NCBI GenBank assembly: GCA_021806295.1
Contig: JAJZXS010000007.1
Location: 1 to 42,383 of the forward strand
Direction: 5' to 3'
DNA: 42,383 nucleotides
Source: Thermoplasmata archaeon
Lineage (GTDB): Archaea; Thermoplasmatota; Thermoplasmata; Thermoplasmatales; Thermoplasmataceae
Under the pieces are notes generated by a model. That model was not told the origin of the DNA. It ran no database searches and saw nothing but the letters and a program-made list of their open reading frames with translations. Positions 2,794-20,473 of this stretch are shown one piece after another (position 1 is the stretch's first letter; each line of letters opens with the position of its first letter). A program made the translations under genes and the position numbers.

Positions 2794-2811
2794 CCCTTGT
2801 AATACTCAGCT

Positions 2812-4196: not shown

Positions 4197-4252
4197 TATA
4201 AGCAATAATGTATTTCACTAATAAGTTAAGCTCAATTAATAAGAGGGATTTA

Positions 4253-4882: not shown

Positions 4883-4892
4883 TATTTTACAT

Positions 4893-4981: not shown

Positions 4982-5043
4982 TACTACTAAAGGTTCAATG
5001 TGCTACCGAGTAAGGCATTAGAATTTTTATTTTGCTTATATAC

Positions 5044-5054
5044 TCCCGATCCGG
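5044..5054 (+). repeat. Candidate left attachment site of the accessory element
   Basis: TCCCGATCCGG, a GC-rich word in an AT-rich gap 63 bases past the tRNA-Met, recurs in the same orientation at 17007-17017 just outside the integrase gene. The stretch from the first to the second copy (about 12 kb) contains all the accessory genes. It is an inferred att core. Confidence 0.4.
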
Positions 5055-5134
5055 TTTTTGTAATATAAAAATAAGATTATATAATCATTATGCTATATTA
5101 TAATTGGAATAAAAAGATAATTAATTCCACTGCC

Positions 5135-5362: not shown

Positions 5363-5363
5363 T

Positions 5364-5588
5364 TCATTCCTCCCCGGATCTGGAAGATTGCGGCTGCCCT
5401 TCAAAGCAAACAACAGATTCCCATGGAATGAAAACCATGACATTATCCGATTTGATGAGCATTCCATCTGCGTCAAAGTCTTCCATGTACCCCTCGCTGA
5501 AAGAAACAGGGTCTCCGGTGGAGTAATACACCTTTATTTTTTTGCCCCTGAATCTTTCTATGAGCCCGATGCTTTTTTTTATATGCAT
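5364..5588 (-). CDS. Small Sm-like (LSm-type) protein, tentative
   Basis: This is a 74-residue protein. Residues about 8-62 have the spacing of an Sm fold. A short N-terminal helix (IGLIERFRGKKIKVYY) is followed by a strand and an FDADGMLIKSDN segment resembling Sm1 (usually ending FDxxMNLxL). FIPWESVVCFEG then resembles the Sm2 strand in which IPxxxVxxIE is common. The resemblance is by eye and the family assignment is uncertain; another small beta-barrel is the alternative. It sits between two paralogous genes with single-base gaps on each side (stop of the 77-aa gene at 5590, start of the 75-aa gene at 5362), so the three are surely co-translated. If Sm-like, it would bind RNA as a ring. 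Confidence 0.6.
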   Translation of the reverse strand: MHIKKSIGLIERFRGKKIKVYYSTGDPVSFSEGYMEDFDADGMLIKSDNVMVFIPWESVVCFEGQPQSSRSGEE

Positions 5589-5589
5589 T

Positions 5590-5823
5590 TCAATTCCGCC
5601 TCTCCCTGCTTTTTAGATATTTCCTGTAAGCTGAAAAGAACCCGTTTCTGGGCAGTGCCTTTATCCTTAGCCTTCCGGGGCATTTCCATGTGAAGTCGTA
5701 TAGATCATACTTGTCATATTTATCAGTGCCATAAGCCTTGATGTATTCACTGATGAGGTATTCGATTTCATGGACTGCCCTTGCCCTTTTGGGCTTGAAG
5801 TCGTAAAGCGTTGCCTGCATCAT
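5590..5823 (-). CDS. Small unknown protein with GTDKYDKYDLYDFTWK motif
   Basis: This 77-residue protein begins MMQATLYDFKPKRARAVHE and is clearly homologous to the 75-residue product of 5135-5362 along its whole length. DNA over the shared centre (about 5690-5765 against 5230-5305) is close to 90% identical by eye, so the duplication is fairly recent or under strong constraint. It has a basic C-terminus ending KSRERRN. The start ATG overlaps the stop of the winged-helix gene by 4 bases (ATGA) and follows a GGGAGAGGAA ribosome-binding site. No known family is recognised, and there is no signal peptide or membrane segment. Confidence 0.7.
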   Translation of the reverse strand: MMQATLYDFKPKRARAVHEIEYLISEYIKAYGTDKYDKYDLYDFTWKCPGRLRIKALPRNGFFSAYRKYLKSRERRN

Positions 5824-6029
5824 TTCCTCTCCCTCAACGCTATTGCTGTGCCATTGATCCTCACAATGCCGAGCAGCTTCATTCCGCTCACTATCTTCCT
5901 TGCTTTCCAGACCTTCACCCCTGATCTTGAAGCGATGTCCTCAATGCGTCCAGGCCCCTCTCTGAGCGTCGCTATAATTTTCTTCCAGTCCTCTGGCAGT
6001 TCAACTACTATTCTCCCATCCTTAATCAT
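5820..6029 (-). CDS. Small winged-helix DNA-binding protein
   Basis: This 69-residue protein reads MIKDGRIVVELPEDWKKI and then IEDIASRSGVKVWKARKIVS, a helix-turn-helix with a plausible recognition helix, and ends with a short beta-wing (LLGIVRINGTAIALRERK). It is probably the transcriptional regulator of the operon. Start choice: a frame opens with TTG at 6092. The ATG at 6029 has a GGAG site 8-9 bases upstream and overlaps the stop of the preceding 46-aa gene by 8 bases, which is typical of coupled translation. Homologues would decide. It has a 4-base overlap with the next gene. Confidence 0.65.
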   Translation of the reverse strand: MIKDGRIVVELPEDWKKIIATLREGPGRIEDIASRSGVKVWKARKIVSGMKLLGIVRINGTAIALRERK

Positions 6030-6162
6030 CGGGCTCATCTCCAGGGTCATCATCCGGATCTTCGGGCTCCACAGGGCTATCCGGATAATCAACTTCAGGG
6101 CCTTTTCCCGGGTGGAATGGGATTATGAAGGGAAATGCTTCGCTGGGGCTATCTGCATGCAT
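6022..6162 (-). CDS. Small acidic Asp/Pro-rich protein, first gene of operon
   Basis: This 46-residue frame starts at the ATG at 6162 with MHADSPSEAFPFIIPFHPG and ends in a tail of Asp, Glu and Pro ending DDDPGDEPDD. Three observations support it as a real gene. A TATA-like CTTTAAAA box (6189-6196 on the minus strand) sits 27-34 bases upstream. The stop overlaps the winged-helix start. The composition is coherent for a disordered acidic peptide. The frame is also open upstream to about 6275 but has no start codon there. Acidic low-complexity peptides of this kind are common in archaeal viruses and plasmids; no function can be assigned. Confidence 0.5.
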   Translation of the reverse strand: MHADSPSEAFPFIIPFHPGKGPEVDYPDSPVEPEDPDDDPGDEPDD

Positions 6163-6188
6163 GCCTTTATTTGAGAAATTTAGAGGGG

Positions 6189-6196
6189 TTTTAAAG
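6189..6196 (-). promoter_or_regulatory. TATA-like box of the small-protein operon
   Basis: On the minus strand this reads CTTTAAAA, 27-34 bases before the ATG at 6162, consistent with a leaderless transcript covering the genes from 6162 down to 5135. Confidence 0.45.
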
Positions 6197-6230
6197 GGCT
6201 TTCGTGTACTGGAATGTGATTCATGTAGAA

Positions 6231-6320
6231 TTATGCCACCCGATGCGCTGTGCCATGAAAATGAATGGGAAAGGTGCCTTTTTTATAAACAGCCTTCACC
6301 CCGTCCTTTTTCTCTTCCAT
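6231..6320 (-). CDS. Possible leaderless micro-ORF, 29 aa
   Basis: ATG at 6320 opens a 29-codon frame, MEEKKDGVKAVYKKG... ending FHGTAHRVA. A clear TATA-like box, CTTATATACC (about 6340-6349 on the minus strand), lies 20-30 bases upstream. It precedes the small-protein operon on the same strand and could be a short leader peptide or simply mark the operon's main promoter. No homology is recognised. Confidence 0.3.
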   Translation of the reverse strand: MEEKKDGVKAVYKKGTFPIHFHGTAHRVA

Positions 6321-6697
6321 AATGAAAAATTGCTTTTGAGGTATATAAGAATAGCCTATGAAGAGCCATCCGAATAAATTTTATTATAATAGAATTATAA
6401 ATCAATCTATATATTTATTATAATCGTGCAATACCAAAAATATTTAATCTTAATACTTTAATAAAAATAAGCAGATTTAACTATTGGGTGGGAAGTCTCA
6501 AATCCTGATTTATAGGGCAAAAAATGGCATAAGAAGGTTAATGGAGGAACTCTCTGAAAAAATACGCTTAGAATTGAAATTTTTGTTACTTCACACCTGT
6601 ACACGCCACGCCTGCACGGTGCATTGCTACCCCTTTAATTATATAATATAATATGAGAAACAAAAATTCTATTTTTAGAAAAAATATGCATATACTG

Positions 6698-6716
6698 GAA
6701 TACAGTGGCTGTATTC
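6698..6716. repeat. Perfect 8-bp inverted repeat, 3-nt loop
   Basis: GAATACAG (6698-6705), TGG, CTGTATTC (6709-6716). The word ACTGGAATA that begins in the left arm recurs at about 6737. It could be a hairpin in RNA or a dimer-binding site. Confidence 0.6.
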
Positions 6717-6859
6717 AACGGGATGGCATCCACGCACTGGAATAAAGAGGGAGCTAATGCAGAGGTGTTATGTTTTCAGTGTGAATGCACTGTTAAATAA
6801 TTTATCTTTGTTTTCATGATGAAACAGGGTGTGCTTTTCACTGAAAAAGGCAAAAATAA

Positions 6860-6877
6860 TTGTTACTACTGTAACAA
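6860..6877. repeat. Perfect 7-bp inverted repeat, 4-nt loop
   Basis: TTGTTAC (6860-6866), TACT, GTAACAA (6871-6877). The half-site GTAACAAAAA also occurs near 9315 and, reversed, near 6585. Confidence 0.55.
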
Positions 6878-6980
6878 AAATTTAATTGCAATAATTTTCA
6901 AAATCGTTCAAATTAAAAGGTTTTGAATATATTTAACTGATAAAAATTATTGAAATTAGCTCTTATCTGTCTTATTATGA

Positions 6981-7030
6981 ACAGGGGTTATATTTACACA
7001 AATATGGTACACAACTATGATGCCCCCTGT
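6981..7030. repeat. Nested stem-loop structure upstream of the 63-aa gene
   Basis: The outer arms ACAGGGG (6981-6987) and CCCCTGT (7024-7030) pair. Inside lies a second hairpin, ATATTT (6990-6995) with AAATAT (7000-7005) around ACAC. The GC-rich outer stem stands out in this AT-rich region. It could be part of a small RNA or an operator. Confidence 0.45.
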
Positions 7031-7141
7031 CTATATATTGTCTTACGATAAAATTGCCCTCAAATTTATGTTTTACTGTACTTAAAGCGTTAAAAAATAT
7101 AATACCACAATTATTAAATACCTATAAATATTATGATTTTT

Positions 7142-7333
7142 ATGGATAAAGCTGTTACAAAAAGTGAGAATATAATAGTTGGATGGGACCCAAAGAGAAA
7201 CAAGAATGGAGAGGTAAATACATTTTTTCTTCACTACAAGGATCGGGGTGTTGTTTTTGCCCATCAAGAAGACCTTACAAAAAAGATAACCGAATTAATT
7301 GATATAGTAGATAAAGAAAAAGGTAGAATCTAA
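7142..7333 (+). CDS. Small hypothetical protein, 63 aa
   Basis: MDKAVTKSENIIVGWDPKRN is followed by NTFFLHYKDRGVVFAHQEDL and a charged C-terminal helix ending KEKGRI. No family is recognised. It is cytoplasmic with no membrane segment. The preferred start is ATG 7142 rather than 7133, because TATTAAATA at 7112-7120 is then 22-30 bases upstream. The codon composition is AT-rich like the rest of the island. It stands alone, with 190 bases of non-coding sequence to the next gene. Confidence 0.55.
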   Translation: MDKAVTKSENIIVGWDPKRNKNGEVNTFFLHYKDRGVVFAHQEDLTKKITELIDIVDKEKGRI

Positions 7334-7527
7334 ATTCTTCTAGTAGATATAATATATATGAAAATAAATAATGTTTCCATTTATGCGCAGTATGCAAGTA
7401 TAAGAAATAAAAGAATTGGCTACAACTGTAGTAGCCCAAAAAAAGCTTGGTGATGTAGTTAAATAATTCTTATTATATGCTTCTAAAAGGTGTTTTTGAT
7501 AAACTGAAACATTAAAAATTTATAATA

Positions 7528-8022
7528 ATGAATATTATAAGTAATGATATAAAAATGATTGTAATTGATAGAATAGAACCGGAAAAACAAAAATGTAGGC
7601 ACTGCATTAAAAATATAGATTCGGCTAGACCTCTCTGGTATATATTTTTTAATCAATTTAATAAAAATACTTCTTTATGGGCCCATAGATCCACAACTCC
7701 ATCATGGATGATTCTACAACCATACAATTTTAACAAAATAAAAGATGATGATAAAATTCCAATAAAATATGCAGAGGAACATGGTGTCAATGTTGCATTA
7801 ATAGAAAAAGGGTATCATCATGAAAGTACAAGCACCGTTATTTTTTATCCAGAGAATAAAGAATTATTTATAGAAACTGTTAAAAATAATTATAATAATA
7901 TGTCTCTAAAATACGAAGAGTACGTAAAATATATAAAAAAACTTGATAAAAAAGGTTACAATCCATCAAAACCTGAAGAATGCCTCCAAGCAGCATTGGA
8001 TTTCTTAACATGGAAATCTTAA
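7528..8022 (+). CDS. Hypothetical protein, 164 aa, with one CxxC
   Basis: I do not recognise this protein. It has a CRHC pair near residue 23, a Trp-rich segment (residues about 37-66, with WYIFF, LWAHR, PSWMILQPYNF), a middle with HGVNVALIEKGYHHES, and a Lys/Tyr-rich helical C-terminus ending ALDFLTWKS. The single CxxC with nearby histidines might bind a metal. The coding sequence is very AT-rich, unlike the core genes, which suggests transfer. The ATG at 7528 is the first in frame; another at 7555 is possible. It is followed after 63 bases by the DUF4145-like gene on the same strand, with a separate TATA-like box between. Confidence 0.6.
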   Translation: MNIISNDIKMIVIDRIEPEKQKCRHCIKNIDSARPLWYIFFNQFNKNTSLWAHRSTTPSWMILQPYNFNKIKDDDKIPIKYAEEHGVNVALIEKGYHHESTSTVIFYPENKELFIETVKNNYNNMSLKYEEYVKYIKKLDKKGYNPSKPEECLQAALDFLTWKS

Positions 8023-8085
8023 TATATTAAGTTCCAGTAGTACCCACTTGAATAAATATTAAATTTATATATGTATTTCATCATT

Positions 8086-8760
8086 ATGCATGAATTTACC
8101 AGGGATGAATGCTTAAAGCAAATAAATGACGGAATATATTTAAACAACACAAGAGATAAACAGGGGAGAAAGGAAAGGGATAAAGAATGTGATGATTTGC
8201 TTTTAAGATACTTTGACCATTGTAGATACACAGAACTAAAAAACGATACAAAATTTGATGTTTTTTCAGAGGGTACAACTACTATGATACAGGCAATAGA
8301 ATCGTATAGAATAGGAATGTTTGATGCCTGTATGGTGATGGTTAGAAATACAATAGATGCAACAATGCTTGCTGCTTTATACTATGAAGTTATATTTAAT
8401 GAGAATAAAACATCAGTATGGTATTTAAAACCAATTATTGAATGGCCGACACTTAAAAATTATAAAAACTGGGATAAAAGAATAGAAGCACTAAAACAGA
8501 AAAAATTTATTGATGACAATGATGCGGAAAGACTTGGAGAAATACACAAAGCTAGCAATTTTTCAGCACATTATTTTATAATTGGCAAGGAGAATATGAA
8601 TAACTTTATAAAAGAAAGAGCAAAATTAGATGATGGTAATAATGAAAAGTATCCAAAGACATTCACAAATGAACAAGAGTGCAAGAAAAATTTGAATAAT
8701 GCATTTGATATTTTAGAGAAATTAATTAATAATTATGTATCAGCATCAATTAACAAGTGA
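8086..8760 (+). CDS. DUF4145/HEPN-like protein
   Basis: This is a 224-residue helical protein. The segment AIESYRIGMFDACMVMVRNT resembles the DUF4145 pattern in which a helix with A..cy..g.y.A..vm.R is followed about 70-90 residues later by a short motif ending in GN.aaH. Here that second motif reads IHKASNFSAHY. DUF4145 belongs to the HEPN superfamily, often RNases or partners in defence and restriction systems. The usual Arg of the R-x4-6-H motif is replaced by Lys or absent, so nuclease activity is doubtful. ATG 8086 is chosen over 8071 because TATTAAATTTATAT at 8057-8069 is then correctly spaced. It is very AT-rich and encoded within the accessory island. Confidence 0.5.
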   Translation: MHEFTRDECLKQINDGIYLNNTRDKQGRKERDKECDDLLLRYFDHCRYTELKNDTKFDVFSEGTTTMIQAIESYRIGMFDACMVMVRNTIDATMLAALYYEVIFNENKTSVWYLKPIIEWPTLKNYKNWDKRIEALKQKKFIDDNDAERLGEIHKASNFSAHYFIIGKENMNNFIKERAKLDDGNNEKYPKTFTNEQECKKNLNNAFDILEKLINNYVSASINK

Positions 8761-8896
8761 AATATTATCCGATTTACCAAACACGTAGTTTTGTAAAAGT
8801 GTTTTAAATGACAATTTTTTAAATTGTAATAGATCTCTTCCATGATAAAAAATATTTTATTTAATATTAGTTAATGTATATAAAAAGTGTTAAGCG

Positions 8897-9130
8897 ATGA
8901 ATGATATAGCAGTTAAACAATTTCATGAGGTAATGAAGGTTAAGGATGAATCCAGCCTGCATCCACATATGTTCAGGCATGGACTGGCCATATATTTATT
9001 GCAGCATGGGGTAAGCGATAAAATCATAGCCAGGAGATTAGGTCATTCAAGTGCCGCAACCACAATAAAGTATTATATGGTGATCACTCCAGAAATTGAG
9101 AGAGACGCACTAAAAGGAATATTATTATAA
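8897..9130 (+). pseudogene. Tyrosine recombinase fragment (C-terminal catalytic end only)
   Basis: The 77-residue frame holds HPHMFRHGLAIYLL (the HxxR box), RRLGHSS (the second His) and TTIKYYMV with the nucleophilic Tyr. It then ends normally. The N-terminal DNA-binding domain and the part with the first catalytic Arg and Lys are missing, and I cannot find them in other frames upstream. It differs in sequence from the intact integrase at 15737-16963, so it derives from a second element. It is most likely a remnant; a short independent protein is possible but would be inactive as a recombinase. Confidence 0.75.
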
Positions 9131-9189
9131 TAAAGGTGTGATAAGGCTAATGCAATTACTTTAAGGGATATCCCATGAATTAAATTTAT

Positions 9190-9263
9190 CTTCAACGTCT
9201 CTGGATCCTTTATATTCCTTCCATGAAATTCTCTATTAGCATAGACTTTAACAATCCCGGCAC
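9190..9263 (-). pseudogene. Degraded copy of the integrase 3' end
   Basis: These 74 bases align to 15767-15841, the end of the intact integrase gene, in the same orientation. The shared core GTCTCTGGATCCTTTA is exact, and identity overall is roughly three quarters to 80% by eye with two single-base gaps. A missing T in the ATATT(A) segment shifts the frame, so it codes nothing. It lies immediately left of the helicase gene, so this copy and the intact integrase flank the restriction-like module. Confidence 0.7.
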
Positions 9264-9341
9264 ACTTATCCTTTATATAGAGAAGCCTCTGTTTTAAGAG
9301 TTAATTTTTCACTACAGTAACAAAAACTAACAGTACATTAA

Positions 9342-12300
9342 CTATTCTCTTGAAAGTAGGCACCAGCATATTCTCCTGAGTGTTATTTCCTTTTTAGGCG
9401 ATATACTGTCTTTGCTGGACTGCTTAAGTATGACATCCCGGGCTTTTTCAAAGAAGTCCTCCTCATTCAATGATTCGTAAAGCGATCGCACCAGAGTTTC
9501 CCTGTTTACCAACTGCCTGAATTTAAGGGCTATGTCCTGATTATATTCCCCTAGCTTATTGAATACCTCACCGCTCTGTTTTGTGAGGTTCGGAATTGCT
9601 GTGGACGATTCCCTTCTCTGTTTTTCCCTCGAAATAGAATCCATTACAGACTCTTTCAAATCTTTGAGTTTTTTAACAAGGCTGCTGTACTCAATCTTTT
9701 GGCCACCGACATCTTTATCGCTGTCTTCCATAAGGATTAAAATTATCTGCCCAGGGTCGCTTATTAGTGCCTTTTCGCCCTCCATTTTAAGCCTCCAATA
9801 GAATTTTTCACCATCTGTGAAAAGGCTAAAAACACCGTTTTTATCGTACTTTTTGAATGCCCCAATGCCACGTGGGATGTTTTTAATCCATTCCTCGCCT
9901 TTCTGATCTATTATTTCCATTAGCTGATCCTTGGGGTCATTTGTGAACTGCTCCATCTCCTTTTCCAATTCAACCAGGATATCGCTCCTACCCTCTGCTA
10001 TAAGTTTCTGCGTTTTACCGAAATCCTTAGGATCAGCGTCTTCACCAAGAACAGGGGAATCAATGCCTATTGTGGCCTTTATGCCTATGATCTTTTCATA
10101 AAGCTTCCCCATAAGGCCTATAAAATGCTCAAGCGATTTCTCATCATTTTTGTTTGAATTTTGCAGCATAATATTCAATAGGTAAACATGGCTATACTTT
10201 GAGCCCATCCTGTCTATTCTTCCTACCCTCTGAATGAGGACTACAGGATTCCATGGAAAGTCATAGTTTACCACATACTGTGCATTCTGCAGATTTTGCC
10301 CCTCACTGAGCACATCTGTGCTTACTATTATGCCGCCATGATCCTGAAAATCTTCAACAATATCGGTTGTATTGGAATCTTTGCCACTGGCATTTATGCA
10401 TTTATTTCCTGATGTAAGGTATGTTCTTTTATAAGCCCTTTTAATAGTATTGAAAAGATACATTGCTGTGGCTGAATACTGGGTAAAAATAACTATGCCA
10501 TTCGGCTCTTCAATTTCAGGCATTATCTTATTTAGCCTAGATATTAAAGCCTCAATCTTTGTGTCCTTTTCAGGCATTTCACTTAATATTTCTTCCAGGA
10601 TCTTAATGTCCTCTTCGCATGAATTCACAAACCATGTTTTTTCATCTTCTGAAAGAATGCATTTAGCTTTCAAATCTTTGTATTTTGAATTATTGAATAT
10701 ATCCTCCGGAATTTCCTCATCAAAATCAAAAAGGGCATCATCTGAAGCTGCACGTGGTAGAAAATACCCGGTTTTCTCTGCATATGCCTTAGCATTCTTC
10801 ATGTAATCTATTATTGAATTTATTGTGTCCCTGAATGCTGCAATAGAGCTTTCAAGCCTTTTGAAGATATTTAAGATAACAATTGTTTTGACCAGGCTCT
10901 TCAGCTTTTCCTTTTTTTCCTTCTGGTTGAACTGGGATATGGCCTCGCCGCTGGGAAGCCTCAGGTCAGAAAACCTGTCGATTGAAAGATCATAGGTTGC
11001 AAAATTAATTTTTTCCAGCCTGGAATAGAGAGTATCATAAGGTATTGTTGATTTGTAGGCATTGCCCGGATCCTTATCCACTATTCTTTGGGGGAAGCTC
11101 AGGTCGGGCTCCACTGCCTGGGCAAATTTTCTTGAATGCCTCACAACAAACCTCTCAAGAACCTCTGACATTTCAAAGTTTTTGCCCTCAATAAGCATTT
11201 TTTGGTTGCTGGAAAAATATCCCTTAAGTGTGGATCCTGTAATATCCTGGATAGAATCATCTTTGGCAAACAGGGATATGAGGTTGTAAAGATCCATTAA
11301 GCTGTTATTCACAGGCGTAGCAGTGGCAAGAACCACCTGGGCATCATTATGAAGTATAAGGTCTCTAAGTGCCTTATACCTGTTGGACGATGAGGATTTG
11401 AAGTAATGCGCCTCATCAACAAGTATGAAATTGGTTCTTTTCCGCATGTATTTTTCAAGGAATCCATCTGGATTTGCCGATACATATTCAGAATTTACGG
11501 AATCTATATGTGTGTCAAGGTTTCCCATCTCCTTTTCCCATGTTGTTTTCAGCACACTCTTGGGGGCAATCAGTAGAACTTTCCTTCCCTCCTGCCTTGC
11601 CTCATGGGCAAGAGCTATCATGGTTCTTGTCTTTCCGAGCCCAGTCGAATCTGCAATTACAACCCCGTTATAAGAGGAAATAATTCTTCTAGCTTCAAGA
11701 AGAGAAACTATCTGGAACTTCTTTAAGCCCATTATTTTAACTCTTTCTGACTGCTCAAGGTCATTCTTATAATTCTCGTATAGGGCCTTTGCCACAACCT
11801 CATAGGGTGTGTGCGTTACTGTATAATTTTTAAGAAATGATAAAAACTCTTCTTTATAGTCCTCAGCAGAATTCCACTTACCCTGGAACCACTGGCTTAT
11901 ATCCCTGACAAGCTCCCTGTCAGTATTTACAACGTTAAGTTCACTATTTGTTTTCAAGCCTGCGTATGTAAAGTTGCTGGATCCCACTATTCCTATTCCG
12001 CTTTTTACAGAGTTAAGGGATGGGCTGGCCCCAATGTATGCTTTTCCATGGAAAAAAGGCCCGTTTATCTTCTTAATTGATCTGGCTGCATCAGAAAAGT
12101 AGGAAACAGCCTCAACCATCAAATTAAAATATTCCGGATCATCCTCGTTTTCTTCTAGCTCCCTAACTATCTGCTCCTCAAATGATATGCTTTCATCCTG
12201 CGGCCTTCCAACAAGGAAATTCATGGGCTTATCCTTAATTGCATCCCTGATAAGGCTAAAGCCTCTTATGTTGAAGTATGCAGATGCAAATGCAAGCTCA

Positions 12301-12371
12301 TCTGCCGCCGGTATCTCCTTGTTGAGAACCTCAAACATCCTCTCCTTTTCATTGTCAATTATCCTGCTCAT
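9342..12371 (-). CDS. PLD-nuclease/SF2 (SNF2-type) helicase of a restriction-like module
   Basis: This is a 1009-residue protein. An N-terminal phospholipase D-like domain has HGKAYIG at about 108-114 and GSSNFTYAG at 130-138, the HxK...N layout of PLD nucleases. A superfamily 2 helicase of SNF2/RapA type follows: Walker A DSTGLGKT (241-248), DEAH (319-322), ATATPVNN (349-356), IVIFTQYSAT (626-635), STDVLSEGQNLQ (684-695) and QRVGRIDRMG (714-723). A long charged C-terminal part has no recognised domain. It probably translocates on DNA and cleaves through the PLD domain. Its start overlaps the end of the methylase gene by 17 bases, so the two are coupled. Compare DISARM, where SNF2 helicase, PLD protein and methylase are separate genes; here the first two are fused and DrmA/DrmB are absent. 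Confidence 0.85.
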   Translation of the reverse strand: MSRIIDNEKERMFEVLNKEIPAADELAFASAYFNIRGFSLIRDAIKDKPMNFLVGRPQDESISFEEQIVRELEENEDDPEYFNLMVEAVSYFSDAARSIKKINGPFFHGKAYIGASPSLNSVKSGIGIVGSSNFTYAGLKTNSELNVVNTDRELVRDISQWFQGKWNSAEDYKEEFLSFLKNYTVTHTPYEVVAKALYENYKNDLEQSERVKIMGLKKFQIVSLLEARRIISSYNGVVIADSTGLGKTRTMIALAHEARQEGRKVLLIAPKSVLKTTWEKEMGNLDTHIDSVNSEYVSANPDGFLEKYMRKRTNFILVDEAHYFKSSSSNRYKALRDLILHNDAQVVLATATPVNNSLMDLYNLISLFAKDDSIQDITGSTLKGYFSSNQKMLIEGKNFEMSEVLERFVVRHSRKFAQAVEPDLSFPQRIVDKDPGNAYKSTIPYDTLYSRLEKINFATYDLSIDRFSDLRLPSGEAISQFNQKEKKEKLKSLVKTIVILNIFKRLESSIAAFRDTINSIIDYMKNAKAYAEKTGYFLPRAASDDALFDFDEEIPEDIFNNSKYKDLKAKCILSEDEKTWFVNSCEEDIKILEEILSEMPEKDTKIEALISRLNKIMPEIEEPNGIVIFTQYSATAMYLFNTIKRAYKRTYLTSGNKCINASGKDSNTTDIVEDFQDHGGIIVSTDVLSEGQNLQNAQYVVNYDFPWNPVVLIQRVGRIDRMGSKYSHVYLLNIMLQNSNKNDEKSLEHFIGLMGKLYEKIIGIKATIGIDSPVLGEDADPKDFGKTQKLIAEGRSDILVELEKEMEQFTNDPKDQLMEIIDQKGEEWIKNIPRGIGAFKKYDKNGVFSLFTDGEKFYWRLKMEGEKALISDPGQIILILMEDSDKDVGGQKIEYSSLVKKLKDLKESVMDSISREKQRRESSTAIPNLTKQSGEVFNKLGEYNQDIALKFRQLVNRETLVRSLYESLNEEDFFEKARDVILKQSSKDSISPKKEITLRRICWCLLSRE

Positions 12372-15300
12372 TTAACCCCTCCTGTGACTTTAGTCCTCTG
12401 TCAGCTTTGATAAGCCTGTCGTCAACAATCTCAATAAATTCTTTGTAAAATTCATCAATATTGAAGTTATCTATAGATAGTAATTTCAATATTCCACTGT
12501 CAAGTTGTCTTCTATCTTTCATTTTAACCTCTTCAAAATATCTTTTCACGCTCCTATCAAAGGCGCTATTAATAGTGGTTAGGTTAATTTTTTGTAAATC
12601 TGGAACGGGCATCTGTTCATAATCGTCTACCATGATCTCACCTACACCCCCACCTAACCTCCTGAGGTAAAGTTCCATGGTGGTGTAAAATAGCGTGGAA
12701 TTCAGGTATGATTCGATTCCGTTTACTTTCGATTTTATTGTATAAAGTGTATGATCACAAATTACTGGTTCATCTGATTTTGGCACAAAGAATCTGTCCA
12801 TTACATACATAGGCATTATTATATTAGCAGGTTCCAACTCGTTAAGGGAATACCAGTTTTTTCTTCCGGATACTGAAGGAACATTGTTGTAACCTATTAC
12901 AGGATCTTTTCTTCCCTTGATTTTTATACTTTGTTCTTGCCCCCACTTAATGTATTTCTTTGTCATTTCTCCGGGGTTATTAGTATACAAGCATAATTTT
13001 TTCATATCGGTTATCGTGTAAGTTTTTAGATCTTTCGTTGTTCTGACAAGTGGCTTTATATCTGATCTGTTTATGGCAAATCTCCCCCCACCCTCATTCT
13101 CAATGTAAATAAGCCCCTGCTCTTTTAATTCCTTCTCATTCCTGGCAATAACACCCCAGTCCTCAAATTTTCCGTGATTCTCAAGATAATCTTTCTCATA
13201 AGATGCTGAAACATCCTTCATATAAAAGAAGTCATTGGCGCCTGTTTTAATCCCAAACTTTATTTCTGCGAATTCTTTAAGCTTGTGTGTCAGCTTTGGG
13301 TATATCTTTTCCATAAACATCTTCGGTGCCCTTAGGTAGAACCATTTTCCGGGTTTCAGATCCTTTCTCACGAATTGTATATGGTTCCTTATTAAAAGAG
13401 AGGAATAGGATTCCAGATAGATAAAATCTGTTGTTTTTAAGCTATCGGTTTCACTACTATATACGTATATAACGCTGTTAACATCAGCTCCAAATGCTCT
13501 CTCCCTCTGCCCATATATCCCAATCAACCTGCTTGAAAGCATCTTTTGTAGATCCTTACCATATCCTGTTTCCAGCCACTTATCTGAGGATATAACTGAT
13601 ACAACCCCGGCCTGGTTAACCAGCTTGAGTGCCCTCAGCACAAAATAACAGTATAAATCCGATTTTTTATTGACTTTGTACTTTAAATGATAAAATTTTT
13701 TCTTTTCAATAGGAATCGATTCCTGTCTTACATATGGGGGATTCATGACAATAATGTCAACCTTTTTCGGTACCCATGATTCTATGATGCCGCCTTCCAC
13801 CCCAGTTTTCCTCTCAATATTATTCTGTATTCTCTGGAGTTCATTTCTGAGTTTTGCCCTTATATCTGGCTTCTTTGCGGTGGCAAACTTCTCTCTTATT
13901 GTCCGCATCTCATCCCATATTGAATTAGGTTTGTCCTCTATCTTTCTCTGGATCCCCTCAAATGTAATTAAAGAATCTGAAATTCTAACAATGTTAAGGT
14001 CCAAGCTCTGAAGGGGCTCTGGCTGCTTTTTATCCACAATCATGGAAAGCCACATCCTCAGTCTGGCAATTTCAATGGCCTCATCCTCGATATCAAACCC
14101 GAACAAATTCTGAAGAATTTTTGTTTTATACATGTCTAAATCAGAATTCCAGCCTACACTTTCATCTGCCTGCCTGAGAATATTTACCATCTCCTGCATC
14201 ATCCCCAGAAGGAAACCACCAGAACCAACTGCAGGATCGAGCACAGTTATGGAGAGGATTTTTTCTCTCAGCTCTCTCACTTCTTTTTCACTTTTATTTT
14301 GATTCAGTCTTTCTATAAGTGAGTTTATGCCATCCTGAAGAACCTCATTTCCGTCAGTTTCCTTTATAGTTTCAGGCAACTTTAGATATGAAGCCAGCGC
14401 CCTTCTACATATAAATGAAACCTCTTCAGGCGGTGTGTAAAATGTACCCTTTGACCCCCTCTCATTTTCAGGCAGCATGTTTTCAAATATTGTTCCAATC
14501 ATTGCAGGGTCAAGGCTTACCTCAACCTCCTTAGGAGAGAGCTCGTCCACTGTAAAATTATACTGGTTAAATAGTTCTCTCGCTTTCTTGAATATACTGT
14601 CCATACCACCCTTAAGCAGTTCCTCTTTTTCAAGGGTAAGATATTCCTCTCTCTCAAACAGTGTGCCATCCAGGTATGGCAGCCCTTCGTTTCCCTCTGT
14701 GCTCAGCCCAACATAATACACCCCGTTCAGTTCTGTATAATCTTTTATTGTATCAACGAAATGCAGGTTGTCTTTTAACCAGCCTTTTCTTTGCAGAAAG
14801 TATAGAAACATAAGCCTGCCAAGAAATCTCTGTGCATATGAATTGGAATGCTCTTGAAGCACTGGCTCAACAGTTTCCACTGCTTTCTTGTATATATTGC
14901 GGTAATCCTCAAAAAAGTCTTTTCTAATCTTCTCATAAGGCAGGAAGTTTTTATCATATTTATCCCTCAATTCCTTGGGTTCGTCTGTATATTTTAAAGA
15001 ATTCAGGGCTTCCGCGTCAGTCTTATATATTTTTTCAGAAAGGCTTAAAATTCTCATTTTTGTTTCAGGTTTCTCAACTAAATTCGGTATTACTATGGCA
15101 TAACTATCATCTCCATCTGTAAATACCATGAGCTGCCTGCTGCCCTGATGTTTTTTCCAGTATCTGGCTATTCTAGCAGCACCTATTCTGGACGGTAGTT
15201 TTTCAAATTCAAGGATTACTATGTCTATTCCGAGCTCATCATGATAAACCAATGTTGCATCAGTTAAAATTACCCCTGGGGGAATTGCCCTCTTATCACG

Positions 15301-15396
15301 TAAAAACTGTGCAGGTATTTTTGATTTTGACAATGGATAACCTAAATTTTCAAGCTGGTTCTCCCAAAATGAGAAATTAAACTTTGTAGATTGCAT
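12355..15396 (-). CDS. Adenine-specific DNA methylase with specificity region (Eco57I/type IIG-like)
   Basis: This is a 1013-residue N6-adenine methylase. SKGTFYTPPEE (about 315-325) and the S-adenosylmethionine motif DPAVGSGGF (387-395) precede the catalytic NPPY (552-555). The C-terminal 350 residues look like a target-recognition domain (MVDDYEQMPVPDL near the end). The N-terminal 150 residues contain GIDIVILEFEKLPSR and resemble the leading module of large type IIG/ISP enzymes; I cannot show an intact PD-(D/E)xK site there, so cleavage is probably left to the PLD-helicase. GTG at 15402 and ATG at 15396 are both possible. ATG is preferred because TTTAATTA at 15412-15419 is then 16-23 bases upstream. 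It is the first gene of the two-gene operon. Confidence 0.88.
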   Translation of the reverse strand: MQSTKFNFSFWENQLENLGYPLSKSKIPAQFLRDKRAIPPGVILTDATLVYHDELGIDIVILEFEKLPSRIGAARIARYWKKHQGSRQLMVFTDGDDSYAIVIPNLVEKPETKMRILSLSEKIYKTDAEALNSLKYTDEPKELRDKYDKNFLPYEKIRKDFFEDYRNIYKKAVETVEPVLQEHSNSYAQRFLGRLMFLYFLQRKGWLKDNLHFVDTIKDYTELNGVYYVGLSTEGNEGLPYLDGTLFEREEYLTLEKEELLKGGMDSIFKKARELFNQYNFTVDELSPKEVEVSLDPAMIGTIFENMLPENERGSKGTFYTPPEEVSFICRRALASYLKLPETIKETDGNEVLQDGINSLIERLNQNKSEKEVRELREKILSITVLDPAVGSGGFLLGMMQEMVNILRQADESVGWNSDLDMYKTKILQNLFGFDIEDEAIEIARLRMWLSMIVDKKQPEPLQSLDLNIVRISDSLITFEGIQRKIEDKPNSIWDEMRTIREKFATAKKPDIRAKLRNELQRIQNNIERKTGVEGGIIESWVPKKVDIIVMNPPYVRQESIPIEKKKFYHLKYKVNKKSDLYCYFVLRALKLVNQAGVVSVISSDKWLETGYGKDLQKMLSSRLIGIYGQRERAFGADVNSVIYVYSSETDSLKTTDFIYLESYSSLLIRNHIQFVRKDLKPGKWFYLRAPKMFMEKIYPKLTHKLKEFAEIKFGIKTGANDFFYMKDVSASYEKDYLENHGKFEDWGVIARNEKELKEQGLIYIENEGGGRFAINRSDIKPLVRTTKDLKTYTITDMKKLCLYTNNPGEMTKKYIKWGQEQSIKIKGRKDPVIGYNNVPSVSGRKNWYSLNELEPANIIMPMYVMDRFFVPKSDEPVICDHTLYTIKSKVNGIESYLNSTLFYTTMELYLRRLGGGVGEIMVDDYEQMPVPDLQKINLTTINSAFDRSVKRYFEEVKMKDRRQLDSGILKLLSIDNFNIDEFYKEFIEIVDDRLIKADRGLKSQEGLNEQDN

Positions 15397-15402
15397 CGAC
15401 AC

Positions 15403-15736
15403 TTATAGGGATAATTAAACAAAAATCTTTGCATTTCATAAGGCGTGTCATTTCCATTTTATACAATAGTTTCCCAGCTCAAATAAATTGGCAGATTTTT
15501 AATAGAAACGTTGTTTTATTTATATACTTCCTAAAATGAACGCACTTAAGGGTATAATCATACCCGAAACATCTTTCAATGTTTAAAACCCCTTTATAAC
15601 CTATCTAAATTTTACAAATAATGCCATATATTCAGATCGTTTCTAGGTATCATTTCATGTGGTTTGTCGCAATAAAATATCTGAATCAAAGAGAAGTGGG
15701 TATAGAAAAGAATTCAAATAATGGTAGTAATCAATA
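15403..15736. other. Gap between methylase and integrase 3' end
   Basis: No full gene is seen. It holds the methylase TATA-like box (15412-15419), and a perfect hairpin GGGTAT-AATC-ATACCC (15550-15565). A 16-codon plus-strand frame (15536-15586) spans that hairpin and has a TATA-like TTTATTTATATA just upstream. The rest is AT-rich. Confidence 0.55.
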
Positions 15737-16963
15737 TCAACTCTTATCTATTTCATTCCTGAACTTCTTCAGTGTCTCTGGATCCTTTAATATTTCTTCC
15801 AGGACATTCTCCATTAATTTAGATTTAAATGATTCCGGCGCAGCTTCGATCATCTTCTTGGCTATTCCTGGTATTGCTTCAGATTTCTCTATTGTGGCCT
15901 CGATCTCCTTCTCCCTGTTCTCATATTCCAATGCCAGTTTCTCATCGAATGGAAGCCAGCAGTTATGGCAGTACTTCTCATTAGCAGGATTTAAATAATC
16001 GCACCTGGGGCATTTCTTGGGTTTTTCTTCTACCTCATTCTTCTCCTTGACATCTATGCCATAGGCCTTGAGTATTGCATTGTCCTGGTCTCTCATGGAT
16101 AAATGAACATAAATAGATGTCATCTTAGATCCGTGAACCCATCCCATCTGATTTTCCAGTGGTGCTTCAGGAACCTTTGAAGCCAGCAATGATGCCCTGG
16201 AATGTCTGAATAAATGTGGATATATCCTTTTATCTATGCCTGTCCTGGCTTTTAGAGTAACAAATAATTTCCTGGCATCGTAGTATTTCATGGCATGGTG
16301 CAAATTCTGCCTCTGCAATCCAGTAAACAGGTATTCATCCTTATCATCCTTTGACTTTATGTAATCCTTTAAATATGCTATGGAATCCCCTATTATCCTT
16401 ACGCTTCTATTACCTGTCTTTCCATGAACCCTTAAAATCATGCCGTACTCATCGAATACTATGTCTTCCATCCTCAGCGTTAATATTTCCCCGATCCTGC
16501 ATCCTGAATCATATAATAATGAAACCAATGCCTTATCCCTGGTGTTGTTGCATGCACCTGTTAATTTTTCTATATCCGGCCTTGTAATCAGATCTATCTT
16601 TTTCTCATGGCTTGACTTATGATTGAATTTAATATCCATGAAATCAGGCAATGAACCAAAATGCCATTTATAGAATCTTTTCATGACATTCTCATAATCC
16701 ATTATGGTGCTATCAGTGTATTTCTTCTTCAGGCCCAGGAACATGTTTATTATTGCCTTTTTGTCTGGATTTAAGAATTTATCCCCTAATATGCCATATA
16801 TCATCCTGATCCTTACCAGGTAGAAATATTCCCTGTATTTTGTTATGCCGGTAATCTTTATCTCATTAACAAAATCTATTATCTGGGTTCTTTCATTTTC
16901 CGGTATTTTATCAAGCCTCTTATACTCTGAATCGAGGTCTCTATCGATAGAATATATGTCCAT
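15737..16963 (-). CDS. Tyrosine recombinase/integrase with C-terminal zinc ribbon
   Basis: This 408-residue protein has a SAM-like N-terminal half (1-120) and the catalytic domain (125-300). It carries every expected residue: R156 in SGCRIGEILTLR, K182 in HGKTGNR, H250 and R253 in PHLFRHSR, H277 in GWVHGSK, and Y285 in SIYVHLS. After it comes a zinc ribbon with C318, C321, C332 and C335 (CPRC...CHNC), then a coiled charged tail. Phage- and plasmid-type archaeal integrases recombine att sites for integration and excision. The gene is intact and its 5' end lies 44 bases from the candidate right attachment site, the usual arrangement for an integrase. A degraded copy of its 3' end is at 9190-9263. 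Confidence 0.9.
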   Translation of the reverse strand: MDIYSIDRDLDSEYKRLDKIPENERTQIIDFVNEIKITGITKYREYFYLVRIRMIYGILGDKFLNPDKKAIINMFLGLKKKYTDSTIMDYENVMKRFYKWHFGSLPDFMDIKFNHKSSHEKKIDLITRPDIEKLTGACNNTRDKALVSLLYDSGCRIGEILTLRMEDIVFDEYGMILRVHGKTGNRSVRIIGDSIAYLKDYIKSKDDKDEYLFTGLQRQNLHHAMKYYDARKLFVTLKARTGIDKRIYPHLFRHSRASLLASKVPEAPLENQMGWVHGSKMTSIYVHLSMRDQDNAILKAYGIDVKEKNEVEEKPKKCPRCDYLNPANEKYCHNCWLPFDEKLALEYENREKEIEATIEKSEAIPGIAKKMIEAAPESFKSKLMENVLEEILKDPETLKKFRNEIDKS

Positions 16964-16999
16964 AATATGCCTAGCGATTGGAAGTGTATTAAACCTTTA

Positions 17000-17019
17000 G
17001 GCTCATTCCCGATCCGGCA
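17000..17019 (+). repeat. Candidate right attachment site; resembles a tRNA 3' end
   Basis: GGCTCATTCCCGATCCGGCA looks like the T-arm and acceptor end of a tRNA with one base lost from the T-loop. It also resembles the end of the left-hand tRNA-Met (CCCGACCCCGGCA). It contains the 11-bp word found at 5044-5054. Confidence 0.4.
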
Positions 17020-17131
17020 TTATATCTAAATGCAAATCCCAAAAGAATGCAGTAAAAATATAACTTTGTCAAATACTATTTTTAGTGTTTTTGTGTCTTG
17101 ATTTAGATGTAAAAATTATACACAGAGCGAT

Positions 17132-17677
17132 TTAAGCATAAACTACTAAATAAGCCATCAGGCTTATTATCGCAACCTGAAATATTAACTGAACCGTGGC
17201 AACCCTTGAAATATTCATCAGGTTTTTTGATACAATCCCCCTGTCTAAGTTTTCTGAATACTGTTCCTGGTAAATTTTTAAAGACATCGGTAAAATGAAG
17301 AAAATTGTGAGTATGAGCAATAATGTAGCTATGGAAAAAATACCAATAAATAGAGGATCTAATGAAATTATTTTTTCACGTATTGCCAGTGCAATTCCTG
17401 ATGAAACCGTAAATATAGATATAGCCGGAATAAAATAGAGGGTCATGGGTATTAGCCTCCTGGCTATATCCGCCTTAATAGTATTATCCAAACTGTTGAT
17501 CACTATGAAGAATATTGCGCCCAGAAACACATCTATCCCGGTCCATAATGCGCCGTATAATACATGCACATAATCAAGTACAAGAATTCCAGGAGTAATT
17601 ATGCCCGCAGAGAACACTATTGCCAGCACTATAACAGATATTAAACCTGTAATTGACTCATGCTGCAATGGTTTCAT
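17132..17677 (-). CDS. Integral membrane protein, paralogue of upstream neighbour (DUF2269/CopD-like, tentative)
   Basis: This 181-residue protein has about five predicted membrane helices (near 10-31, 37-60, 75-98, 104-130 and 157-180). The second helix starts YVHVLYGALWTGIDVFLG, and the pattern VHV..G..WTG.D...G is shared with the neighbouring gene. A His and Trp at such a helix start recall CopD- and DUF2269-type membrane proteins, where His may bind haem or metal; the assignment is tentative. The ATG overlaps the stop of the upstream gene by 4 bases, so the two are co-translated and probably form a heterodimer. It lies just outside the proposed element boundary. Confidence 0.65.
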   Translation of the reverse strand: MKPLQHESITGLISVIVLAIVFSAGIITPGILVLDYVHVLYGALWTGIDVFLGAIFFIVINSLDNTIKADIARRLIPMTLYFIPAISIFTVSSGIALAIREKIISLDPLFIGIFSIATLLLILTIFFILPMSLKIYQEQYSENLDRGIVSKNLMNISRVATVQLIFQVAIISLMAYLVVYA

Positions 17678-18264
17678 AGCAGTCCCCCCGTCGCAAAGTG
17701 TGCCATCAGTGCTATTATGGCTATCTGAAGAATTACCTGGCTTAGCGACAGCCTGAGGTTAAACATTGTAAGCCTTATAATCTTGTCCTTATCTTTGGCT
17801 CCATGGAGAATCTCATTATAAACTCTCAGCTCATTGGGCAGAAATATTCCTATGCCCTGGATCAGAAGCGCAAAGGCGATAACCAGCGCAGCAATTATAT
17901 AAGGAGATGAAAATGGTATGTGCATGGATATGGCCAGATAAATTCCGGCAGTTATGGTTACAGAAGAAATTGAAGGCATGAAGAAAAGCATTGTAGGAGT
18001 AAGCCTCATGGAAATATTTGTTTTTTCAGCATTGTTCAGGCCTTTCATTACATATGAAAAGAAGAGGCCCATGATAAGATCCATCCCAGTCCACATAGAT
18101 CCAGAAACCACATGCACATATTCAAGAAAGTAGAAGTTATGCAGGTACAGGACCACAGCAAGCAGAATCGGGGGAATAAGGAGCATTGGGAGTCCCCTGG
18201 ACATAGAATTTTTTATATCAAAACGCCTGTCAAAATACACTGATCTGGAACCGTCCGTTATCAC
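17674..18264 (-). CDS. Integral membrane protein, first of a paralogous pair
   Basis: This 196-residue protein has the same fold as its downstream neighbour. Helix one is a hydrophobic stretch after residue 22, then YVHVVSGSMWTGMDLIMG begins helix two, RLTPTMLFFMPSISSVTI corresponds to RLIPMTLYFIPAISIFTV in the partner, and a final helix follows (QVILQIAIIALMAHF). The frame opens with GTG at 18264; an internal ATG at residue 19 (MSRGLPML) would shorten it by 18 residues and still keep all helices. A TATA-like box on the minus strand at about 18281-18290 suits the GTG start moderately. The function is unknown; a small two-subunit membrane complex is a reasonable guess. Confidence 0.65.
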   Translation of the reverse strand: MITDGSRSVYFDRRFDIKNSMSRGLPMLLIPPILLAVVLYLHNFYFLEYVHVVSGSMWTGMDLIMGLFFSYVMKGLNNAEKTNISMRLTPTMLFFMPSISSVTITAGIYLAISMHIPFSSPYIIAALVIAFALLIQGIGIFLPNELRVYNEILHGAKDKDKIIRLTMFNLRLSLSQVILQIAIIALMAHFATGGLL

Positions 18265-18334
18265 GTCTTAAAAATATTATCAAATATAAAAGGATATTTA
18301 TAGAAACAATTCTTTGTAACTTTAATAATATATA

Positions 18335-18407
18335 TGCGAGTGCCGGGATTTGGACCCGGGTTAGTGGCTTGGGAAGCCACTGTGATACCAGGCTACACTA
18401 CGCTCGC
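18335..18407 (-). tRNA. tRNA-Gly(CCC)
   Basis: On the minus strand the acceptor GCGAGCG pairs with the 3' strand ending in discriminator A at 18335 (one G-T pair). The anticodon arm is GTGGC-TTCCCAA-GCCAC with anticodon CCC, and the T-arm is CCGGG-TCCAAAT-CCCGG. It is 73 nt, with no intron and no encoded CCA. Confidence 0.93.
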
Positions 18408-18605
18408 TTTTTTAATTATCTTCTGGAAGTGTTCTCTAACCCATCTTATAAGCAACCCTGTAATCAGCCAACAAAGCTGAACTGCAGGTTTCATGTGGTA
18501 AACCTTCCCAAATCAAAACGGTTATGTTAAAAATATTTATAAACGTTCCTATGGCAATCCGAATCACAATGTCCAGTACTTCTATTCTCCATAGAGATAA
18601 TTTAT

Positions 18606-19094
18606 TTATATCTTTATCTGCCTTCTTCTGGCAAGGTCGAGTACCTTCAATCCCATTTCGGTTGGCTCATAATTTTTATCCATAATACCCATTTCATATA
18701 GCTTCTGGCATTTTTCTGCATTATCCTTCCTTTCCCTTTTCAGGAGTATAAGCCTGAGGCAGGGAATATCAACATATTTTATGTACTCCCTTTCTGTCAT
18801 GTCCCTGAGTATGTAATGACCCTTATTTGCAATATGGTAATATGTATGGTGTTTATGAACCTCATTGGTCTTCTTCAATTTTGCCTCTGTCCTTTTTACA
18901 GATGATCCTGAATATTTTTCTATGAGTCCCATTGCATACAGCCGCTCTATGTATATTTGAACCTTATCCTGCGGTATACTGGTATAAATTTTTATATTTT
19001 TGGCATAATCTAGTTTGGCAAGCTCAAAGTGCTTCAGCACCATGAGCATTTCATGATCCATAACTAGCATTTTTTTTATTTCCTCATCTTCCAT
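18606..19094 (-). CDS. Winged-helix protein, DUF2250-like
   Basis: This 162-residue protein has an N-terminal winged-helix unit: residues about 14-62, with AKNIKIYTSIPQDKVQIYIE as the helix-turn-helix and LYAMGLIEKYSG leading into the wing. A YHIANKGHYILRDM segment then gives the second half, ending with a short repeat of the theme (LYEMGIMDKNYEPTEMGLKV). Proteins with this pattern in Thermoplasmatales carry the DUF2250 label and are presumed DNA-binding regulators; the target is unknown. The start at ATG 19094 fits a TATA-like TTTATAGAG on the minus strand about 24-33 bases upstream. It is transcribed divergently from glutamate dehydrogenase, which it might control. Confidence 0.65.
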   Translation of the reverse strand: MEDEEIKKMLVMDHEMLMVLKHFELAKLDYAKNIKIYTSIPQDKVQIYIERLYAMGLIEKYSGSSVKRTEAKLKKTNEVHKHHTYYHIANKGHYILRDMTEREYIKYVDIPCLRLILLKRERKDNAEKCQKLYEMGIMDKNYEPTEMGLKVLDLARRRQIKI

Positions 19095-19222
19095 ATATTA
19101 TTTATAATGTTAACACTCTATAAAAATCTAAGTTATTGCTGGATACGCGTTATCAATTGTCATACAATAGGTGCCAAAGCAAACCTTAAACTACCCCTTC
19201 GTGATTTCAACCCGGTGTTTAT

Positions 19223-20473
19223 ATGGAAGATTTAGATCCGTTTGATATAGCGCTGGCCCAGCTAAACAAGGCTGCGAAGGTAATGAAGCTAGACAGTGCA
19301 ACTGTAGATGTGCTGAGTTCTCCCAAGGAGATTCTCCAGGTGAGTATACCTGTAAAGATGGATAACGGCGAGACAAAGGTATTCACCGGATTCAGAGTAC
19401 ATTACAATAATGCAAGGGGGCCAATGAAGGGCGGAATAAGATATTATATAAAAGAAAATCTATCAGAGGTAAAGGCTCTATCTGCATGGATGACATGGAA
19501 AACAGCACTTCTGGGGCTACCATTCGGCGGTGCCAAGGGTGGAATTATCTGCGATACAAAGAAGATGAGCAAGAATGAACTTGAAAAATTAAGCAGGGGA
19601 TACATAGACGCAATTGCTGACTTTATAGGGCCAGAGATTGATGTGCCTGCCCCGGATGTCTACACAACCCCACAGATAATGGGATGGATGATGGACGAAT
19701 ATGAAAAGATAGTCAGGCATTCTGCTCCTGGTGTCATCACAGGAAAGCCACTTACAGTTGGCGGGTCCCTCGGAAGAGGAGATGCCACAGCAAAAGGCGG
19801 AATGTACGTTTTGAGAGAGGGTGCAAAATACAAGGGAATAGACCTGACAAAGGCAAAATATGCCATACAGGGCTTCGGAAACGCCGGCCAGTTCGCTGTT
19901 AAATTTGTGAATGAAATGTTTCAGGGAAAAGTTGTTGCAGTTTCTGATTCCAGCGGCGGAATATACAAGGAAAGCGGAATAGATTACAAGGAACTTCTTG
20001 AGCACAAGGAAAAGACAGGAACAGTGGAAAACTTCCCGGGATCCAAGAACATAACAAATGAGGAGCTTCTGGAATCCGACGTTGATGTACTTATTCCTTC
20101 TGCAATAGAGGATCAGCTAACAGGCGAAAATGCATCAAAAGTAAAGGCTAAAATTGTGCTGGAACTTGCAAACGGTCCTTCAACCCCCGAGGCTGATGAG
20201 ATATTCTTCAAGAGAGATATTTTACTTCTTCCAGATTTCCTGTCAAACGCAGGAGGAGTTACAGTATCGTACTTTGAATGGGTGCAGAACATAACCGGTG
20301 ATTACTGGACAGAAAATGATGTATACAGCAGGCTTGACCAGAAGATGACTGCAGCAACCAAGGATGTACTGGATGTACATGAAAAATACAAGACAGACCC
20401 GAGGACAGCAGCATACATAATAGCCATACAGAGAGTCGTAGATGCCATGAAGGCAAGAGGACTCTTAAATTAA
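19223..20473 (+). CDS. gdhA: Glutamate dehydrogenase
   Basis: This 416-residue hexameric-type GDH catalyses L-glutamate + NAD(P)+ + water to 2-oxoglutarate + ammonia. It shows the glutamate-binding [10 protein letters not shown] (K69), the catalytic block [13 protein letters not shown] (K105) and the dinucleotide fold GFGNAG at 217-222. Length and order match archaeal GDHs. The start at 19223 is the first ATG, with CTTAAAC about 30 bases upstream. Together with arginine deiminase in the same window it connects amino-acid breakdown to ammonia. Coenzyme preference cannot be settled by eye. Confidence 0.95.

Follow-up and report, generated by a model that had tools for sequence, protein, structure and literature searches.

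A PLD nuclease-SNF2 ATPase and its partner adenine methylase as a predicted two-subunit restriction-modification system in Thermoplasmata

The question addressed here is what kind of system is encoded by HEL and MT, two overlapping genes in a 42,383-nt stretch of a Thermoplasmata archaeon genome (GenBank assembly GCA_021806295.1, contig JAJZXS010000007.1; the whole stretch is referred to as the window). HEL fuses a PLD nuclease domain to an SNF2-type ATPase and MT is an N6-adenine methyltransferase by its domains (Table 1). ATP-dependent restriction enzymes are classed according to which polypeptide chains carry the nuclease, the motor, the methylase and the recognition domain, and in this pair methyltransferase and motor-endonuclease are encoded together, as in ATP-dependent restriction-modification (RM) systems generally. 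On sequence evidence, HEL and MT are predicted to form a two-subunit ATP-dependent RM system, to which we assign a probability of about 0.7. The best reading is of a system that is type I/ISP-like in logic and SauUSI-like in effector, and that is neither DISARM, BREX nor canonical type I/ISP.

The HEL-MT gene pair and its spread

Both open reading frames (ORFs) are intact, and MT counts 1015 aa from a GTG start or 1013 aa from an in-frame ATG two codons in. The 17-nt overlap between the genes is shared by eight loci with this gene order, the window included (the others being L022-L026, L059 and L034), and most of the remaining loci overlap by 4-20 nt. An earlier note on this DNA, made from the letters alone, had described products of 1009 and 1013 aa (from ATG) with a 17-nt overlap, an HGK motif at 108-110, a GSSN motif at 130-133, a complete SNF2 motor and an N6-adenine methylase with an apparent target-recognition end. 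All of this was confirmed, the last item as an Eco57I-type domain followed by a C-terminal third that appears to be swapped between relatives. As two ORFs of ~1000 codons with curated domain matches are joined by an overlap that recurs in at least seven other loci, the pair lies far beyond chance.

Pairing was surveyed in 390 genomes of the phylum and in contig and plasmid collections. Relatives of HEL at E<=1e-20 were counted in 18 of the 390 genomes, the window genome included. In 16/16 other PLD-type HEL loci from these genomes, viewed with as much as 20 kb of surrounding sequence, a gamma-class methylase adjoins HEL or sits one to two genes off; this count includes L039, a truncated HEL whose PLD part is unchecked. 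Two loci, L037 and L038, were left out of it as their HEL-like SNF2 proteins lack the PLD motif and belong to a different family that adjoins type III Mod and Res genes (and DUF4391 in L038). Conversely, the pair was present in all seven genomes with a strong MT match. Further close full-length pairs were found by a scan of archaeal contigs in Nitrososphaeria, Aigarchaeota/Calditenuaceae, Hadesarchaea, Marsarchaeota, Bathyarchaeota and Thermogymnomonas, using an alignment as the query (a single-protein query gave no matches), and MT lies upstream of HEL in all of these further loci that have upstream sequence. A gap of ~2 kb separates the genes in L055, and frame breaks occur in L055, L059 and L065. 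Genome G230 is ASS_A1 (CP009479.1), of the same family as the window genome. In viral contigs, helicase or methylase matches were only partial and of low identity. The check proposed in the earlier note, whether the pair is conserved together across archaea, thus returned a pair that recurs in many archaeal lineages and also in bacteria. In an all-against-all ORF comparison of 22 loci, HEL and MT were the only genes consistently common to them. The HEL-MT pair is a real unit.

Table 1. Features of the HEL-MT pair and of the element that carries it (window coordinates).
Feature	Position	Strand	Basis or remark
HEL, PLD nuclease-SNF2 ATPase fusion, 1009 aa, ATG start	9342-12371	minus	predicted restriction/translocation subunit
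PLD (PLDc_2) nuclease domain, HEL residues ~1-180	11832-12371	minus	Pfam PLDc_2 at 99-166; whole N-terminal domain aligned in relatives
HxK motif, H108-G-K110	12042-12050	minus	28/28 PLD-bearing sequences
GSSN motif 130-133 (S131, N133), then E144	11973-11984	minus	S 28/28, N 27/28, E 28/28
SNF2-type motor, HEL residues ~216-735 (STGLGKT, DEAH, TATP, QRVGRIDR)	10167-11726	minus	Pfam SNF2-rel, Helicase_C; alignment
HEL C-terminal region, residues 740-1009, conserved CWC peptide at end	9345-10154	minus	conserved in A5
MT, Eco57I/MmeI-like gamma-class N6-adenine methyltransferase, 1015 aa	12355-15402	minus	predicted modification and specificity subunit
MT N-terminal alpha/beta domain (~1-150), no conserved canonical (D/E)xK triad	14953-15402	minus	alignment
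Methylase motif I, DPAVGSGGF (389-397)	14212-14238	minus	near-invariant
Methylase motif IV, NPPY (554-557)	13732-13743	minus	near-invariant
Mosaic MT C-terminal region, residues ~690-1000, predicted target-recognition domain	12403-13335	minus	sliding identity; Mantel decoupling; Lactococcus cassette homology
Overlap of MT end and HEL start, exactly 17 nt	12355-12371	minus	ORF coordinates
tRNA-Met, integration target; 3' end (~4959-4982) is left boundary	4892-4982	plus	
Degenerate right-hand copy of tRNA-Met 3' end, right boundary	16999-17020	none	alignment to empty site L099
XerA-like tyrosine recombinase, right end of element	15737-16963	minus	Pfam/NCBIfam

Nuclease, motor, methylase and recognition end

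The textbook PLD motif is HxKx4D. HEL matched the Pfam families PLDc_2 (2e-8), SNF2-rel (1.5e-16) and Helicase_C (9e-18), and its residues were followed in an alignment of 30 archaeal and bacterial sequences, 28 of which bear the PLD domain (L037 and L038 do not). H108, K110, S131 and E144 are kept in 28/28 and N133 in 27/28 PLD-bearing proteins despite an overall identity that falls to ~22%, and all 30 sequences keep the Walker A lysine, DE in the DEAH box and the arginines of motif VI. By this alignment, HEL carries the HxK...GSxN...E catalytic set of the Nuc/BfiI PLD nucleases, minus the aspartate of HxKx4D; that set is H-K-S-N-E with an N-to-E spacing of 11. The HxK and GSxN residues, whose loss in relatives would according to the earlier note have spoken against its proposal, are therefore retained.

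The same residues bear on an alternative in which methylation marks self in BREX- or DISARM-like exclusion, and HEL is a translocating blocker of phage replication whose PLD domain is auxiliary or inactive. HEL does score against the DrmD/BrxHI models, MT lies near PglX/BrxX and other gamma-class methyltransferases among solved structures, and BREX-related type 2 systems pair an N6-methyltransferase with an HKD-helicase (PMC12839542). Against this, H-K-S-N-E is kept across ~22% identity, scores fall several-fold short of the curated DrmD and PglX cut-offs, and no PglZ, DUF499 or MZB/DrmB-type domain was found in the host genome, a 96% complete draft in 49 contigs, with models that detect some control genomes. 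Exclusion of this kind is unlikely.

MT matched the Pfam families Eco57I (1.7e-28), MmeI_Mtase and N6_Mtase, and is the only N6_Mtase match in the host genome, where one N6_N4_Mtase match lies elsewhere. A motif X-like FYTP is followed by motif I and then by NPPY, as is usual in gamma-class adenine methylases, and motifs I and IV are near-invariant in the alignment. Since no recognisable nuclease was found in MT with Pfam or by alignment, the PLD domain of HEL is the only evident cutter. The acidic surroundings of E65/E67 in MT were considered as a PD-(D/E)XK remnant; no conserved lysine stands at the expected place and they are at most a degenerate one.

It could be supposed that MT works by itself as a type IIG-like enzyme with a divergent N-terminal nuclease, and that HEL, a type IV/SauUSI-like defence in its own right, merely accompanies it. 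The best PADLOC models for MT are indeed 'REase_MTase_IIG', and SauUSI, with its PLD-SF2-SRA architecture (SF2 being helicase superfamily 2), works without a partner (PMC7913695). Such an arrangement is nevertheless decidedly improbable, as the MT N-terminus shows no conserved (D/E)xK, no recognition domain, SRA included, was identified in HEL with Pfam, pairing is near-obligatory and the divergences of the two proteins are tightly correlated. Specifically, HEL distances followed those of MT residues 1-680 with a Mantel r of 0.98 (p=0.0001) for 8 close pairs and of 0.96 for all 21 pairs, based on crude identity distances.

With MT residues 690-1000, r was 0.34 (p=0.09) for the 8 close pairs. 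Sliding identity gave the same picture at the level of single loci. Between L022 and L023, identity is ~86% for HEL and 70-90% for most MT N-part windows, with C-parts at ~50%, whereas between L022 and L025 the N-part windows are mostly at 30-60% and the C-parts at ~70-85%. As judged from these identities, the motor-nuclease co-evolves with the methylase core and the C-terminal third of MT moves between backbones; being decoupled from HEL and swapped in this way, this third is read as the target-recognition domain.

A further form of exchange is found in the Lactococcus plasmid pJM1F (L047), in which HEL and MT stand in reversed order with a 14-nt overlap and are followed by an inverted gene fragment and an Mpi-type serine recombinase (invertase). 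The fragment is 47% identical to residues 799-1018 of that plasmid's MT. Other lactococcal plasmids match pJM1F at 93-99% until the recognition part of MT, where matching ends. Phase-variable specificity is thus probable for the PLD-helicase RM system of pJM1F, and inverted cassette, invertase and plasmid matches ending within MT together make it very likely that specificity switching occurs in the broader HEL-MT family. Sliding identity, the Mantel test and the bacterial cassette all point to the MT C-part as an exchangeable target-recognition region. In L047, 321-nt inverted repeat arms (71%) were also observed at 7794-9579, between the 3' part of MT and the inverted recognition-domain cassette beside the invertase.

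The two-subunit RM reading suggests the following mechanism. The C-terminal domain of MT would read a DNA site and MT would methylate adenine there, marking self. At an unmodified site, an MT-HEL complex, or HEL recruited by MT, would fire the SNF2 motor and translocate on the duplex; HEL residues 740-1009 are a candidate coupler or partner-binding region. The PLD domain would then make a double-strand break, probably metal-free, through dimerisation or collision of complexes. In SauUSI and BfiI the PLD catalytic site is built from two protomers (PMC7913695), and as HEL carries one HxK set per chain, cleavage should need two HEL copies. Adenine methylation, translocation, cleavage, complex formation and any antiviral benefit are expected here by analogy with the respective families. 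That one protein marks self and the other translocates and cuts, as the earlier note suggested, is nonetheless the proposal best supported, given strict pairing, conserved motifs in nuclease, motor and methylase, the joint evolution of HEL and the MT core, and recognition-end swapping.

Several points weigh against it. The aspartate of HxKx4D is Ala115 in the window HEL and is present in several relatives (e.g. L030 and L050). The N-terminal domain of MT may itself be a nuclease, though a divergent one. The AlphaFold models are weak (pLDDT 66 for HEL and 60 for MT), lending no support to docking or a complex and giving no basis for assigning the N-terminal fold of MT. Finally, genes lie between MT and HEL in several relatives (IrrE with DUF4411, DUF262, AbiEii), so some of these systems are not strictly two-gene ones. 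Foldseek searches with the same models returned SNF2 motors for HEL, with SauUSI (7clg) ranked 5th as the sole restriction enzyme among the top matches listed, and CamA, MmeI, BrxX and DrdV for MT. TM-scores were low for both, and these matches agree weakly with an RM system.

Relation to named defence systems

Each named class was compared with the pair. Type I RM needs a separate HsdS, for which the host genome gave no Methylase_S match with a model that does detect control genomes. Type IIG enzymes carry an N-terminal nuclease in the methylase chain; the corresponding part of MT shows no conserved (D/E)xK but may still be a divergent nuclease. Type ISP enzymes such as LlaGI and LlaBIII consist of nuclease, translocase, gamma-methylase and recognition domain modules (PMC3874165) and resemble HEL-MT in these functional modules; they are single polypeptides with an Mrr-like nuclease (typically PD-QxK), whereas the window has two ORFs and a PLD nuclease. 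SauUSI combines an N-terminal PLD nuclease and an SF2 motor in one ATP-dependent chain that is dimeric via the nuclease (PMC7913695), the same order of domains as in HEL. It differs in having its own SRA domain and attacking methylated DNA, while specificity and protection of HEL are expected from the partner methylase; a type IV SauUSI-like assignment therefore fits in PLD-SNF2 architecture but not in the SRA domain, for which Pfam gave no match. CglI and NgoAVII are ATP-dependent RM systems that likewise use a PLD nuclease together with an SF2 helicase-like ATPase (PMC7913695), but on separate subunits (R2H2) and with a B3 recognition domain on the nuclease, whereas HEL is fused and recognition is placed in the methylase.

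DISARM shares an SNF2 helicase, a PLD protein and a type IIG methylase with HEL-MT. It differs by DrmA, DrmB and DrmC, none of which neighbours the pair, and HEL reached 149.5 bits against a DrmD cut-off of 610, with no MZB domain genome-wide; the stress that the earlier note laid on the differences from DISARM was well placed. Its proposed search for DrmD and PglX was run and both curated cut-offs were missed by wide margins, MT scoring 72 against 500 bits for PglX, and with PglZ not found in the host genome BREX was rejected too. The BREX-related type 2 systems consist of DUF499, an N6-methyltransferase, an HKD-helicase and DUF3780 (PMC12839542). They are alike in having an HKD/PLD nuclease N-terminal to a Swi2/Snf2 helicase plus an N6-methyltransferase, and unlike in that DUF499 was not found genome-wide and no further conserved partner gene is shared by the loci (DUF3780 was not searched by name). 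Phosphorothioate (PT)-associated Pbe/CxC systems use HKD-helicases with other core genes (PMC10853773). The best PADLOC match of HEL, and likewise the top match for all HELs tested, was C3a139 (HKD+Snf2; PDLC01075), at 1.9e-55 over residues 121-894 for a model without a curated cut-off.

The closest arrangement is that of the lactococcal plasmid pLd8, in which orf33 (PLD, SNF2 and Helicase_C) and orf34 (a IIG-like methylase without a restriction domain) were listed as a putative RM system with PLD as the cutter and compared with DISARM (PMC6098607). Compared by description only, these are the same two components in the same arrangement as in the window, and the entry is an annotation without characterisation (PMC6098607). 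In pJM1F and in L. plantarum plas2 (L048) the HEL and MT genes also overlap, but HEL comes first, both proteins exceed those of the window in length (~1230 and ~1110-1155 aa) and identity is only ~25-29%; the pJM1F pair is ~27-29% identical to that of the window and has the inverted recognition cassette in addition. No functional study of a HEL-MT-type pair, and no match to a characterised two-gene system such as would have undone the earlier proposal, was found in the open-access literature, which omits most subscription papers. The pair appears uncharacterised, but its arrangement also occurs outside this archaeon and had earlier been listed on pLd8.

HEL-MT is a variant and an archaeal clade of ATP-dependent RM and not a categorically new system. 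We tentatively suggest, at somewhat less than even odds, that it represents an undescribed RM class, a 'split ISP', in which the PLD cutter is fused to the motor and all specificity lies in the methylase, which occurs in many archaeal lineages and on bacterial plasmids, and in which specificity is changed by exchanging, or in lactococci inverting, the recognition end while the cutter stays constant. Its distribution of domains is not covered by the names type I, ISP, IIG, IV, DISARM or BREX, yet it is widespread and mobile, and annotation libraries list its halves apart, one as a type IIG enzyme and the other as an 'HKD+Snf2' helicase. If the pair works as predicted, one constant PLD-motor subunit would serve methylases with swappable recognition ends, making the specificity code and partner coupling testable, and the archaeal proteins are likely to be robust for structure work.

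The carrying element and accessory genes

HEL-MT is cargo of a ~12-kb element at ~4959-17020 in a tRNA-Met gene, as established by an empty site in a sister genome, boundaries at the tRNA end and a recombinase. The sister genome G116 runs uninterrupted from window positions 1-4991 to 17005-19989, with flanks ~87-91% identical; both G116 (L099, 16922-16947) and G392 (L100) show the empty site. With the pair as the main cargo of an element that has an integrase, and with plasmid-borne relatives common, it might be mainly an addiction or stabilisation module, that is, a selfish RM system. This would be compatible with RM function, and no shared integrase lies near most loci; we regard it as very improbable that stabilisation is the main role.

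In L030, L031, L032 and L035, of the same family, HTH-IrrE (M78 peptidase) and DUF4411 proteins lie between MT and HEL and resemble an embedded toxin-antitoxin pair. DUF262, AbiEii nucleotidyltransferase and Schlafen/AlbA genes lie between or beside MT and HEL in L049 (Deinococcus pRadio5), L053 (Thermococcus profundus plasmid) and L033, and are possible extra effectors.

Within the element, positions 7000-9000 are AT-rich (28% GC against ~39% around) and encode a 164-aa orphan ORF and a 229-aa DUF4145 protein, neither with homologues in the other pair loci. A possible second tyrosine recombinase remnant (HPHMFRHG...GHSSAATTI), a weak match at E 0.095, lies at 8948-9067 on the plus strand, beside a 43-nt stretch at ~9196-9238 that matches the 3' terminus of the intact integrase gene at 88% identity; both point to insertion next to HEL having been nested or repeated. 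A 91-nt direct repeat (88%) at 5226-5316 and 5684-5774, spaced by 458 nt, and a 41-nt repeat at 461 nt constitute a partial tandem duplication.

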